From Ignavibacteria bacterium (GTDB lineage Bacteria > Bacteroidota > Ignavibacteria > Ignavibacteriales > Ignavibacteriaceae): DNA of 64,000 nucleotides. Positions 39,905-43,695 of the stretch are shown piece by piece. The stretch is from assembly GCA_017302895.1 (NCBI GenBank), contig JAFLBV010000001.1:1659001-1723000 (forward strand), written 5' to 3'. How positions within the stretch are numbered: the first letter of the stretch is position 1; every line of letters begins with the position of its first letter. The notes under the pieces are model-generated. The model saw only the letters and a program-made list of their open reading frames with translations. It was not told the origin of the DNA and made no database searches. Position numbers and translations under genes: made by a program.

Positions 39905-40120
39905 TTCTGTACCGCCCCCCTAACCCCCCTCCTTATAAAGGTGGGGGGAAGATCGTAGCGCGGAATTAGGTTCTACCCATATGTCGCCGCAAGGGCTTTT
40001 TCCCATCCGTGGAAATCTTTGTTGCATCCGTTTCATCCGTGTTCCATTTTTTCATCTGCGTTCATCTGTTTAATCTGCGTGTATCTGCGTCCTTCAAAAA
40101 CAATCCGTTCCATCCGCGTT
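39905..40120. repeat. Mixed interspersed repeats before the rRNA methyltransferase operon
   Basis: Contains the CCCCCCTAACCCCCCTCC hairpin element (39914-39950), one CCCATATGTCGCCGCAAGGG unit (about 39975) and ATCCGTG / ATCTGCGT phrases to 40115. No gene is visible. The operon promoter may be the TAAATTTGCAG near 40163. Confidence 0.7.
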
Positions 40121-40178
40121 CCATTTTCCATCATCGTCCCCAAATTCGCAATATTATCGTTAAATTTGCAGTGTTAAA

Positions 40179-41015
40179 ATGAAAAATGAGATGCAGCAGA
40201 AAATAGACGACATTGTAAAGAAGATAAAAGCCTCGAAAAAGTATAAGATTATTCTTGAAGAGACGATCCGTGATGTGATTGTGAAGGAACTGGAACGACA
40301 CAAGAGTTTGAAGATTGCAGAGGAGGCGGCGAAAAAGAAACTTCACAGGATTCGTGCGGAATATCTGGGGGAGCCGAACTACAAAAAGGTGAAAGAGGCG
40401 CTGTCTGTTGCTTTTGAAAAGAATGACGATGAAGAGATTAGGGGAGTTTGCTGGTCGATATTTTCGAAACATGCCTCAACCCGTGAGAGGAATCTTTTAT
40501 TGGGGGAATATTACAACAGACTTTTTGATGTGACGGGGAAACCTGAATCGATAGCAGATCTTGCGTGTGCGCTGAATCCATTGTCATTCAGATGGATGGG
40601 ATTGGACAATTCCGTAAAATTTTATGCCTATGATGTAAATGAGCAGTTTATTGATCTGATCAATTTTTATTTTGAACTGGAGGGATTGGAACCACTGGGA
40701 ATACAAAGGGATGTTTATTCGAGTCCCCCTGAGATACCGGTAGATGTTGCGTTTTTATTTAAGATGTACTATTGTCTGGAGCACAGACTGACGGGAGCGG
40801 GACTTGAAGTCGTTAAAAATGTTCCTGCCCGCAAGGTTTTAATTTCCTTCCCGACTCTGAATCTGGTTGCAAAGAAAACCGACATTCTTGGAAACCATGA
40901 AGAGGACCTTAAAAAAGGTGCCGAGGAGTTTGGGTGGAAGCTGGGATATATCGAATTTGAAAATGAAGTTGTGGTAGTGGTTGACAAGGAACCGGTGACG
41001 GGGGAGGGGAAATGA
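40179..41015 (+). CDS. 16S rRNA m7G1405 methyltransferase-like protein (FmrO/Rmt family), diverged
   Basis: 278 residues. N-terminal helical rRNA-binding domain, then HASTRERNLLLGEYYNRLF, the HxST-RE box of the ArmA/RmtB/FmrO family, SAM motif I DLACALNPLSF (from Asp127; relatives have ACG), YAYDVNEQFIDLINFYF and VAFLFKMYYCLEHR. The family methylates N7 of G1405 in 16S rRNA (aminoglycoside resistance). The late loop is ISFPTLNLVAKK, lacking the SLGGR found in relatives, so the target may differ. Stop overlaps rsmI (ATGA). Confidence 0.75.
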   Translation: MKNEMQQKIDDIVKKIKASKKYKIILEETIRDVIVKELERHKSLKIAEEAAKKKLHRIRAEYLGEPNYKKVKEALSVAFEKNDDEEIRGVCWSIFSKHASTRERNLLLGEYYNRLFDVTGKPESIADLACALNPLSFRWMGLDNSVKFYAYDVNEQFIDLINFYFELEGLEPLGIQRDVYSSPPEIPVDVAFLFKMYYCLEHRLTGAGLEVVKNVPARKVLISFPTLNLVAKKTDILGNHEEDLKKGAEEFGWKLGYIEFENEVVVVVDKEPVTGEGK

Positions 41016-41830
41016 GCGGAACGCTGTATGTGATTTCCACTCCGATTGGAAATCTTGAGGACATTACCCTGAGGAGTTTGAGGCTCCTTAAAACTCTCGA
41101 ACACATAGCGTGTGAGGACACAAGAACAACGAGGTCATTGATGCAAAAACTTGAAATAGAATTGCATCACCATCTTTTTTCATACCATGAGCATAACGAG
41201 ATAAAAGCGACGGAAAAGATGCTCAATCTTTTACGCTCGGGTATTGATGTCGGGCTGGTTTCGGATGCGGGGATGCCCGGAATCAGCGATCCCGGTTACA
41301 GGGTAATTTCCCGCGCAGTTGAAGAGGGATTCAAGGTGGAAGTTGCGCCGGGGGCTTCCGCGGTTCAGACTGCGCTAATAGCTTCGGGACTGCCGTTTTC
41401 GAGCTACACATTCAAGGGATTTCCTCCGAGAAAAGAGGGAAAAAGAAGAAAGTTTTTTGAAGATGAGAAGAACCTTCCGCATACTATCATATTTTTTGAG
41501 TCGAAATTCCGAATAATCAAGGCAATGGAATCGGCATATGCGGTGCTTGGCAACAGGATAGCGGTTGTTTGTCTTGAACTTACCAAGCAGTATGAAACAA
41601 TTATCAGGGCGCCTCTATCAGAAATGAGGGAGATGTTGGAAAAGAGTGATTTACGGGGAGAGATAACCGCTCTGATAGCGGGTGCGAATCCAAAATTCAC
41701 AGATGAGGAGGATGACTCAGAATTTGAAGATCCCGATGAAATTGAGAGTGAAGAATTCGAAGAAAAGAAACGGGTTTCAAAATATAAATTAAAAAAAATG
41801 GAGAGTGAGGAGGAAGATGAAGAGTCTTAA
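41012..41830 (+). CDS. rsmI: 16S rRNA (cytidine1402-2'-O)-methyltransferase RsmI
   Basis: 272 residues, a tetrapyrrole-methylase fold: TLYVISTPIGNLEDITLRSL and then EDTRTTRSLM, LVSDAGMPGISDPGYRVI, GASAVQTALIASGLP. These are the RsmI signatures; it makes 2'-O-methyl C1402 in the decoding centre. The C-terminus is an unusual acidic/basic tail (EEDDSEFEDPDEIESEEFEE), whose codons also supply the GAGGAGGAAG ribosome site of the next gene. Confidence 0.92.
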   Translation: MSGTLYVISTPIGNLEDITLRSLRLLKTLEHIACEDTRTTRSLMQKLEIELHHHLFSYHEHNEIKATEKMLNLLRSGIDVGLVSDAGMPGISDPGYRVISRAVEEGFKVEVAPGASAVQTALIASGLPFSSYTFKGFPPRKEGKRRKFFEDEKNLPHTIIFFESKFRIIKAMESAYAVLGNRIAVVCLELTKQYETIIRAPLSEMREMLEKSDLRGEITALIAGANPKFTDEEDDSEFEDPDEIESEEFEEKKRVSKYKLKKMESEEEDEES

Positions 41831-42908
41831 AACCCGTTCCGGTGAGATGCATTTCCCCGTGTTTTTGCCCGATGGTACCAGAGGAATCGTAAGAAGTGTT
41901 GATTCATCCGATTTGGAAGCCTGTGGAATCGAGGCTATTGTTGTGAATACACTTCACCTGACCACAAAGCCCGGACTGACAACCGTGAACGGAATCGGGG
42001 GCATCCACGAGTTTATGAATTTTCATCATTCGGTGATATCGGATTCAGGTGGTTTTCAGGTCTATTCCCTGATTACGGAATCGAAGGCGGGGACAATTCA
42101 CAAAGACGGTTTTACCTACAAACTTGAACAGGAAAAAGAGAAACAGACACTCACTCCTGAAAAATGCATTCAGCACCAGTTCAGAATAGGTGCGGACATA
42201 ATATATTGCCTCGACTACTGCACCCATCCCTCGGCACCCGATGAAACCCAGATTGAGAGCGTTGAGCTCACCATTAAGTGGGCAAAAAGATGCAAAAAAG
42301 AGTATGAAAATCAGATTAAAATCAGGAAGATTTCCGATGAGGAAAGACCGCTGATTTTTGGGGTAGTTCAGGGGGGCAACAGTAAAGAGCTTAGGAAAAA
42401 GTGTGTCGATGCGCTAATGGAAATTGGATTCGACGGTTATGGTTTTGGTGGCTGGCCCATTGACGATGAAGGAAAACTTCTTGAGATGGTGGGATTCGTA
42501 GCTGAACTTGTGGGAGCAGGCTACCCGAAACATGCACTCGGAATCGGGAAGCCGGAGAATCTTGTAAGGGCATTTATAGCCGGTTATGAAATATTCGATT
42601 GTGTGATTCCAACCCGCGATGCCCGGCATAAAAGGCTATACACATTCAAAAACTACGATTCGATAGAAAATATAGACGATCTTGCAGACGGGTTTTACAA
42701 ATATCTTTATATGCAGGATGACATTCACATAAAGGATTTCAGACCGATTGAGGAGGGATGCGACTGTCATACATGCCGCCACTTCACCCGAAGTTATCTG
42801 CATCACTTGTTCAGAATTGGGGATACTCTCGCCAACAGACTCGCTACAATTCACAATCTCCGGTTTTACACCAGACTGACCGACAAACTGCGGCAGATAA
42901 ATGGATAA
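41817..42908 (+). CDS. tgt: tRNA-guanine transglycosylase homologue
   Basis: 363 residues. TGT motifs: nucleophile region SDSGGFQVYSL, DYCTHPSAPDE, GVVQGG, HALGIGKPENLV, CVIPTRDARHKRLYTF, and zinc ligands CDCHTCRHFTRSYLHHLFR with a later His (ATIHNLRFY). Bacterial TGT exchanges G34 for preQ1 in GUN-anticodon tRNAs. N-terminal boxes are diverged (FLPDGTRGIVRSVDSSDLEA), so it may be a second, specialised TGT. ATG at 41817 has GAGGAGGAAG before it. Confidence 0.85.
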   Translation: MKSLKTRSGEMHFPVFLPDGTRGIVRSVDSSDLEACGIEAIVVNTLHLTTKPGLTTVNGIGGIHEFMNFHHSVISDSGGFQVYSLITESKAGTIHKDGFTYKLEQEKEKQTLTPEKCIQHQFRIGADIIYCLDYCTHPSAPDETQIESVELTIKWAKRCKKEYENQIKIRKISDEERPLIFGVVQGGNSKELRKKCVDALMEIGFDGYGFGGWPIDDEGKLLEMVGFVAELVGAGYPKHALGIGKPENLVRAFIAGYEIFDCVIPTRDARHKRLYTFKNYDSIENIDDLADGFYKYLYMQDDIHIKDFRPIEEGCDCHTCRHFTRSYLHHLFRIGDTLANRLATIHNLRFYTRLTDKLRQING

Positions 42909-43695
42909 ACAGCTTCTTTCGGAAAAGATTTACTCCTCGATCAAAAAATCGGGCAAATATTCCAATGTCTATGAAGGGACGGTCCGGAAGATAATCGACA
43001 TGATGATCACCCGCTACGGCAAGGAAAAAGAGATTGAAAAAAATGTGAAGAAAAAGCTGCATCAGATTTATGGAGCTTATCAGTTATTAGTTATGAATTA
43101 TGAGTTATTAGTGGATGGTAACGGGTCGTTGGATGTTGAAAAAATACTGAAGGGGCATGTATCGACGGCGGAGAGGACGGGGTTTTATGAGGAATTTTAC
43201 GGGAGAATATTCGGGGTGTTGGGGGGTGAGAGGAAGTATAAAATTTATGATGCGGCTTGCGGGTTCAATCCTTTTTCGGCGGGATATTTTAAGGATTGGG
43301 TTGGGGAGTATCACTGTTCTGACATTGATGTGGTTTTGAATGATAATTTGAATAAATTTTTTTGCGATGCGGGACTGGTTAATTTTTCGAGTGAGAACAA
43401 GGATTTGACGGTGGATCAAATCAATTTTGCTGATTATGATGTCGTGTTTCTTTTCAAGACTTTATCTTGCATCGAGAGGCAGGAAAAGGGAAGTGCCGCC
43501 TTGATTCTTAAAAATGCACTGGCCGCAAAGCATGTGGTGGTAAGTTTTCCGTCGAAATCAATTGGTGGCAGGGAAAAAGGGATGGCAGAAAACTATGCAG
43601 TATTTCTTGACGGCCTGATTGAGGGGATGGAGCTGGTTAAGACAGATTTAGTCTTTCCGAATGAGATGGTCTATATTTTGAGCAGGCCCACTTAG
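42901..43695 (+). CDS. 16S rRNA m7G1405 methyltransferase-like protein (FmrO/ArmA family)
   Basis: 264 residues, closer to ArmA/Rmt than its paralogue at 40179: HVSTAERTGFYEEFYGRIF, DAACGFNPFSAGYF (Asp117), VVFLFKTLSCIERQEKGSAA, HVVVSFPSKSIGGREKGMAE and a final VFPNEMVYIL. These match the family's conserved boxes in order. Predicted to methylate G1405. Residues 61-72 (QLLVMNYELLVD) come from an inserted phrase repeat. Starts inside the tgt stop (8 nt overlap). Confidence 0.82.
   Translation: MDKQLLSEKIYSSIKKSGKYSNVYEGTVRKIIDMMITRYGKEKEIEKNVKKKLHQIYGAYQLLVMNYELLVDGNGSLDVEKILKGHVSTAERTGFYEEFYGRIFGVLGGERKYKIYDAACGFNPFSAGYFKDWVGEYHCSDIDVVLNDNLNKFFCDAGLVNFSSENKDLTVDQINFADYDVVFLFKTLSCIERQEKGSAALILKNALAAKHVVVSFPSKSIGGREKGMAENYAVFLDGLIEGMELVKTDLVFPNEMVYILSRPT
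43081..43112 (+). repeat. Phrase repeat inside the methyltransferase gene
   Basis: CAGTTATTAGTTATGAATTA followed by TGAGTTATTAG is the same intergenic phrase as at 21440, 25912 and 26027. Here it is in frame and encodes QLLVMNYELLV between helices of the N-terminal domain. Confidence 0.75.

Follow-up and report, generated by a model that had tools for sequence, protein, structure and literature searches.

The stretch of DNA analysed here, which we call the window, comprises 64,000 nucleotides (nt) of an Ignavibacteria bacterium chromosome (contig JAFLBV010000001.1, positions 1,659,001 to 1,723,000) and harbors an operon of four overlapping genes encoding two methyltransferases of the FmrO/Rmt family (MT1 and MT2), an RsmI protein, and a divergent tRNA-guanine transglycosylase (TGT2). 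Genes of the TGT2 clade were found to adjoin Rmt genes in many phyla and also on clinical plasmids. We define such an arrangement, in which a TGT2-clade tgt gene and an FmrO gene lie side by side on one strand, as the 'Rmt-TGT2 module'; the window operon, in which TGT2 and MT2 overlap by 8 nt, belongs to it. The operon is probably one case of a widespread accessory module that combines protection against aminoglycosides with compensation of decoding. The features of the operon are as follows.

40179..41015, + strand: MT1, 278 amino acids (aa); methyltransferase of the Rmt/FmrO family, from a divergent subfamily ('RMTx') that lacks the KGM target loop
40848..40889, + strand: MT1 loop FPTLNLVAKKTDIL in place of the Rmt loop FPxKSLGGRxKGM, from alignments and the motif list
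41012..41015, + strand: overlap of MT1 and RsmI, 4 nt (ATGA)
41012..41830, + strand: module-type RsmI (family of C1402 2'-O-methyltransferases), 272 aa, with an acidic C-terminal tail
41817..41830, + strand: overlap of RsmI and TGT2, 14 nt
41817..42908, + strand: TGT2, a paralogue of tRNA-guanine transglycosylase that is dedicated to Rmt operons, 363 aa from ATG (alternative GTG start at 41805)
42441..42458, + strand: TGT2 signature G[FYL]GGWP (GGLAVGE in housekeeping enzymes), altered 7-substituent pocket
42901..42908, + strand: overlap of TGT2 and MT2, 8 nt
42901..43695, + strand: MT2, 264 aa; canonical Rmt-type methyltransferase by its sequence, probable writer of N7-methylated G1405 (m7G1405)
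43546..43584, + strand: target loop of MT2, FPSKSIGGREKGM, kept

The coordinates and the overlaps of 4, 14, and 8 nt match exactly those of the original prediction, which had been made from the letters of the window. Six genomes, from three genera of Ignavibacteriaceae, share this gene order (split over two contigs in one of them). All four genes are under purifying selection, with ratios of nonsynonymous to synonymous substitution rates (dN/dS) of 0.022 for MT1, 0.027 for RsmI, 0.022 for TGT2, and 0.110 for MT2 against a genome of the same genus (G369). Given this conserved order and the low dN/dS of all four genes, the operon is not a chance arrangement. Upstream of it, positions 39984-40125 of the window are occupied by a run of imperfect 'catccgt/catctgcgtt' repeats.

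Association of TGT2 with Rmt across phyla

Using the TGT2 motif as a DNA pattern, without reference to Rmt, we searched genomes of GTDB and obtained a sample of at least 117 loci; the counts from this search hold among the matches listed. An Rmt (FmrO) gene was directly adjacent to TGT2 on the same strand in 91 of the 102 assessable loci, which are spread over many phyla. It lay downstream of TGT2 in 86 of those 91, mostly overlapping by 4-14 nt, and the commonest overlap was the 8 nt of the window, which is also that of tgt and rmtG on plasmids. At the genome level, an FmrO gene was present in 110 of 117 TGT2 genomes and in none of 14 control genomes. The remaining loci came from 26 genomes, 19 of which had FmrO somewhere, and six of the seven exceptions were genomes of 0.7-1.2 Mb. 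In the reverse test, in which FmrO was found independently of TGT, 24 of 35 loci had a TGT2-type TGT within 1.5 kb (19 of 30 Anaerolineae genomes and all five true matches in a Clostridia order). The 39 housekeeping tgt loci, nearly all taken from the same genomes, had no Rmt, RsmI, or RsmH gene nearby and a single weak RsmF match.

The other neighbours of TGT2 point to the same part of the ribosome. Rmt enzymes act on G1405 of 16S rRNA, RsmI and RsmH on C1402, and RsmF on C1407, all within six bases of helix 44. Among the 117 loci, many of which were visible only in part, 41 had RsmI as a neighbour on the strand of TGT2, 15 had RsmH, and 13 had RsmF; at least one of the three was near about half of the TGT2 loci. 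Recurrent orders were RsmH-TGT2-Rmt-RsmI in Clostridia, as in the clinical rmtG cassette, and RsmI-TGT2-Rmt-RMTx-RsmF in Anaerolineae, and that of the window is RMTx-RsmI-TGT2-Rmt. The idea put forward in the original prediction, that the decoding site has a chromosomal operon of its own, is supported by operons of other phyla that join Rmt, RsmI, RsmH, RsmF, and TGT, a combination far commoner there than around housekeeping tgt genes. In a rumen Clostridiales locus (L112:459-2516), one frame of 685 aa comprised tryptophanyl-tRNA synthetase and RsmH, upstream of TGT2-Rmt-RsmI; in several neighbours the two were separate genes side by side.

The four enzymes of the operon

TGT2 is a second, divergent transglycosylase. 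Its score for the bacterial Tgt family TIGR00430 (307) barely reached the cut-off (306.75). A normal tgt gene is located elsewhere in the same genome (C2:737858; 538 bits vs 314 for the operon copy), and QueA is also encoded away from the operon. In the phylogenetic tree, a branch with a support of 100 split the 133 rows of TGT2 from the 39 rows of housekeeping TGT. The view that the tgt of the operon is a housekeeping modifier, held at the outset, was therefore abandoned. Nor can TGT2 be taken for the ordinary TGT of Chloroflexota or Clostridia, since nearly all such genomes have a normal TGT in addition and the tree separates both.

The AlphaFold2 (AF2) model of TGT2 had a mean confidence (pLDDT) of 95, and its best match in the Protein Data Bank (PDB) was the TGT of Z. 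mobilis, with a template-modeling (TM) score of 0.87. TGT2 shares with bacterial Tgt the fold, both catalytic aspartates (D102 and D280), and the zinc ligands, and it also keeps D156, Q203, and G230. It differs in forming its own clade, in its changed 7-substituent pocket, in its linkage to Rmt and not to queA, and in its status as a second copy. The preQ1 pocket L231-A232-V233-G234-E235 is W-P-I-D-D in TGT2, which thus lacks the housekeeping pocket. The changes in the pocket and in the subsite for nucleotides 33/34 include an invariant V45D, L231W, A232P, Q292R, and a variable L68. The motif GGWP is common to plasmid TGT2s, with GGFP in the rmtE2 cassette, in place of the GGLAVGE of housekeeping enzymes. 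TGT2 would be an active transglycosylase, because the catalytic and zinc residues are kept, and its base and RNA specificity is uncertain, because the pocket and subsite are changed.

Some relatives of TGT2 deviate from this pattern. The genomes of 0.7-1.2 Mb, mostly named Patescibacteria, had a TGT2-type gene without Rmt, and the four that were counted (L109, L114, L099, and L137) had no other TGT; in L109 the gene was located beside queA. Two TGT2 proteins of Alphaproteobacteria (L110 and L143) have lost the zinc ligands that belong to the C-terminal domain of Tgt.

The operon RsmI is a full-length member of TIGR00096 (206.5 bits, cut-off 167.9), from which it is set apart by its module lineage and acidic tail. 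The genome has a second RsmI-like gene outside the operon. Within the family, all but two genomes had at least one RsmI-like gene, nearly always of two types, and the carriers had the operon RsmI in place of type a, with no other type-a copy. The tree placed the operon RsmI among module RsmIs from Hydrogenedentes, Eisenbacteria, Coatesbacteria, and Alphaproteobacteria and away from those native to the family, and it was not orthologous to the family's resident RsmI. Rather than being the housekeeping copy assumed originally, the RsmI of the module belongs to a lineage of its own, and in each of the six carriers in Ignavibacteriaceae it replaces the resident RsmI.

MT1 and MT2 both passed the cut-off of Pfam FmrO (PF07091; 153 and 106 bits, cut-off 27). 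They share the fold and the S-adenosylmethionine (SAM) motif with the m7G1405 methyltransferases ArmA, Rmt, and Sgm, and unlike these, both scored below the 250-bit cut-off of the NCBIfam equivalog NF000466 (174.5 and 199.3 bits). Strong structure matches of the two were limited to Sgm, RmtB, RmtC, RmtF, and ArmA. For MT2 the best PDB match was RmtC (E 7e-33), and MT2 has the K...GM target loop (SFPSKSIGGREKGM) and the ERQ motif in the form CIERQEKG. In RmtC, the target-loop residues K236 and M245, numbered here from the alignment, and R211 are important for function. By these features MT2 looks like a canonical m7G1405 methyltransferase. The genome has a single 16S gene, and the presumed target region in it, C1402-C1403-C1404-G1405-U1406-C1407, is intact. 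An A/T-rich, near-repetitive stretch of MT2 (window 43078-43115; cagttattagttatgaattatgagttattagtg) resembles a small in-frame insertion relative to other Rmts, and the MT2 orthologue of isolate SB14 (L060:5507-6838) carries a mid-protein insert of tandem DESSRAATPSG(R/K) repeats.

MT1 has neither the target loop nor the ERQ motif; it carries FPTLNLVAKKTDIL and CLEHRLTG instead, which are conserved within the MT1 clade (loop consensus FPT[LI]NLVxKKTDIL in the orthologues). We therefore did not file it as a G1405 enzyme. MT1 is not a decayed gene, as judged from its dN/dS of 0.022 and the kept SAM site (DLACALNP). The AF2 model (pLDDT 90) best matched Sgm (PDB 3lcu; TM 0.85/0.90 by Foldseek). 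MT1, its orthologues, and the second Rmts of Anaerolineae formed a clade of 23 with a support of 97, and genes of this clade adjoined a canonical Rmt gene in the examined loci. Because the Rmt fold is confident, the SAM site kept, and the loop different, we infer that MT1 is an active enzyme with a target other than G1405. The proposal of two m7G1405-type enzymes thus holds as to family for both proteins and as to target loop for MT2, and was given up for MT1.

Distribution and clinical plasmid cassettes

FmrO above the family cut-off was found in two of the 395 phylum genomes sampled and in six of 80 genomes of Ignavibacteriaceae, always with this gene set. These numbers contradict an operon anciently conserved in the class, or one that is 'host-type' as first described. 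As it is patchy in the family, its RsmI groups across phyla, and its dN/dS is low, it seems to be an accessory operon that the family acquired from outside and that selection maintains.

The original prediction had also contrasted the operon with the Rmt genes of plasmids. On the contrary, clinical rmtB2, rmtD2, rmtE2, and rmtG, which are known aminoglycoside resistance genes, are accompanied by the same type of TGT. In tblastn searches of plasmids, the window TGT2 had 45-54% identity to the genes beside these four, vs 34-36% to ordinary TGTs. The plasmid TGTs in turn resembled TGT2s of Clostridia (identities of 81% for rmtG, 82% for rmtD2, 72% for rmtE2, and 70% for rmtB2), with similar G+C content, and the nearest sources were, by name, Clostridia of rabbit gut, rumen, and poultry gut. 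In the tree, RmtG with RmtD2, RmtE2, and RmtB2 with RmtF were within or at the base of Clostridia Rmt clades. The corresponding Rmt identities were only 44-57%, too low to name the donors. In the rmtB2 cassette of p12100-NDM (L010), a gene for a YaeI-like phosphodiesterase is located between tgt and rmtB2, with a corA gene nearby.

The rmtG operon of Klebsiella plasmids (rsmH-tgt-rmtG-truncated rsmI) is one of the closest known counterparts. Its last gene is a remnant of 98 aa that corresponds to positions 1-66 of the RsmI profile. As in the window, a TGT2-clade tgt is directly upstream of rmt with an 8-nt overlap, and genes for C1402 methyltransferases are alongside. The window operon differs in being chromosomal, in lacking rsmH, and in having a second Rmt gene and a complete rsmI that precedes tgt; identities are 46% for tgt and below 30% for rmt. 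The rmtG case itself is already known: a review gives an operon of rsmH, tgt, rmtG, and 'rsmL' (PMC9311965), and the tRNA ribosyltransferase gene upstream of rmtG has been noted (PMC3904158). In the literature searched, which covered few subscription journals, neither the general module nor the TGT2 and MT1 clades turned up as the subject of a paper.

These results suggest that the acquired 16S rRNA methyltransferase genes did not arise alone. Instead, rmtB, rmtD, rmtE, and rmtG resemble fragments of a module, environmental or from gut Clostridia, of G1405 methylation, C1402 enzymes, and a dedicated TGT, which gives a lead on the origin of clinical pan-aminoglycoside resistance and on why such plasmids carry tgt. 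A further lead concerns two enzymes, TGT2 and MT1, with putative targets near the best-studied site of the ribosome.

Proposed function of the module

In the mechanism that we propose, MT2 would methylate N7 of 16S G1405 and block 4,6-disubstituted aminoglycosides, while RsmI would methylate the ribose of C1402, three bases away, in place of the host's own copy. TGT2, with its catalytic chemistry kept and its base pocket altered, would most likely modify G34 of GUN-anticodon tRNAs, and this modification would preserve the accuracy of decoding when the A site is remodelled and drug stress prevails. For MT1, the different target loop makes methylation of another site, or of a partner substrate, probable. 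In transposon insertion sequencing (Tn-seq) of V. cholerae with tobramycin, loss was detrimental for tgt (-15.8), rsmH (-8.4), rsmI (-8.4), and rsmF (-2.5) (PMC10117853), and tgt supports, and is needed for, aminoglycoside tolerance (PMC11703503). We favor drug protection with decoding compensation because the module bundles these Tn-seq functions with Rmt and travels with resistance genes.

Several observations weigh against this proposal. Besides the family figures given above, the module is patchy in Anaerolineae (20%) and in the Clostridia order (7 of 151, including two sub-threshold matches), and such patchiness is compatible with resistance but also with other accessory functions. In 11 of 30 Anaerolineae FmrO loci, no TGT was within reach. 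Most hosts already have housekeeping TGT and QueA, and a second tRNA TGT therefore needs a special reason. The mirror-tree correlation of TGT2 and Rmt distance matrices was high (r = 0.84, 87 pairs); however, in 34 genomes it was 0.69, no better than the 0.70 of TGT2 with housekeeping TGT, and we therefore did not take it as proof of long-term co-transfer as one unit.

The view of the original prediction, that the operon is a native and constitutive tuning of the decoding site which sets translation accuracy, with resistance as a by-product unrelated to its purpose, is in our judgment unlikely, though to be taken seriously. It would fit a chromosomal, long-retained operon under strong purifying selection in anaerobic and thermophilic environmental lineages, the displacement of the resident RsmI in all six family carriers, and the better conservation of MT1 than of MT2. 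However, the presence of the module is very patchy within families and orders, its RsmI and TGT2 lineages cross phyla, and four cassettes are clinical.

A more radical alternative concerns the substrate of TGT2. The enzyme might act on rRNA and introduce 7-deazaguanine at a guanine of helix 44 (G1405 or G1401), at or beside the Rmt target; this would be a second route to an altered position 7 of the Rmt's base, MT1 and MT2 might then differ in their sites, and MT1 would methylate a new position of the decoding site. In favor of this reading, TGT2 is coupled exclusively to rRNA enzymes and is almost always an extra TGT, some of its carriers are without QueA, and its pocket and 33/34 subsite are changed while D102, D156, Q203, G230, and D280 are kept. 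Furthermore, C1403-C1404-G1405-U1406-C1407 is one base off the TGT target Y-U33-G34-U35-Y. If true, it would be the first such rRNA modification. We nevertheless give it little credence: we know of no precedent for an rRNA transglycosylase; the small, mostly Patescibacteria genomes with a TGT2-type gene as apparently the sole TGT, once beside queA, suggest ordinary queuosine (Q) synthesis on tRNA; and a 7-deazaguanine at 1405 cannot be N7-methylated, so that the enzymes would compete there.

That the genes are mere neighbours in a translation-related cluster, sharing expression without any joint function for TGT2, is hardly credible. Admittedly, genes for RsmI, RsmH, and TGT are common, and the neighbours vary between phyla. 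However, it is the TGT2 subfamily and not the housekeeping copy that adjoins Rmt, in about nine tenths of the assessable loci among the matches listed, the reading frames typically overlap, and the same pairing recurs in four plasmid cassettes.

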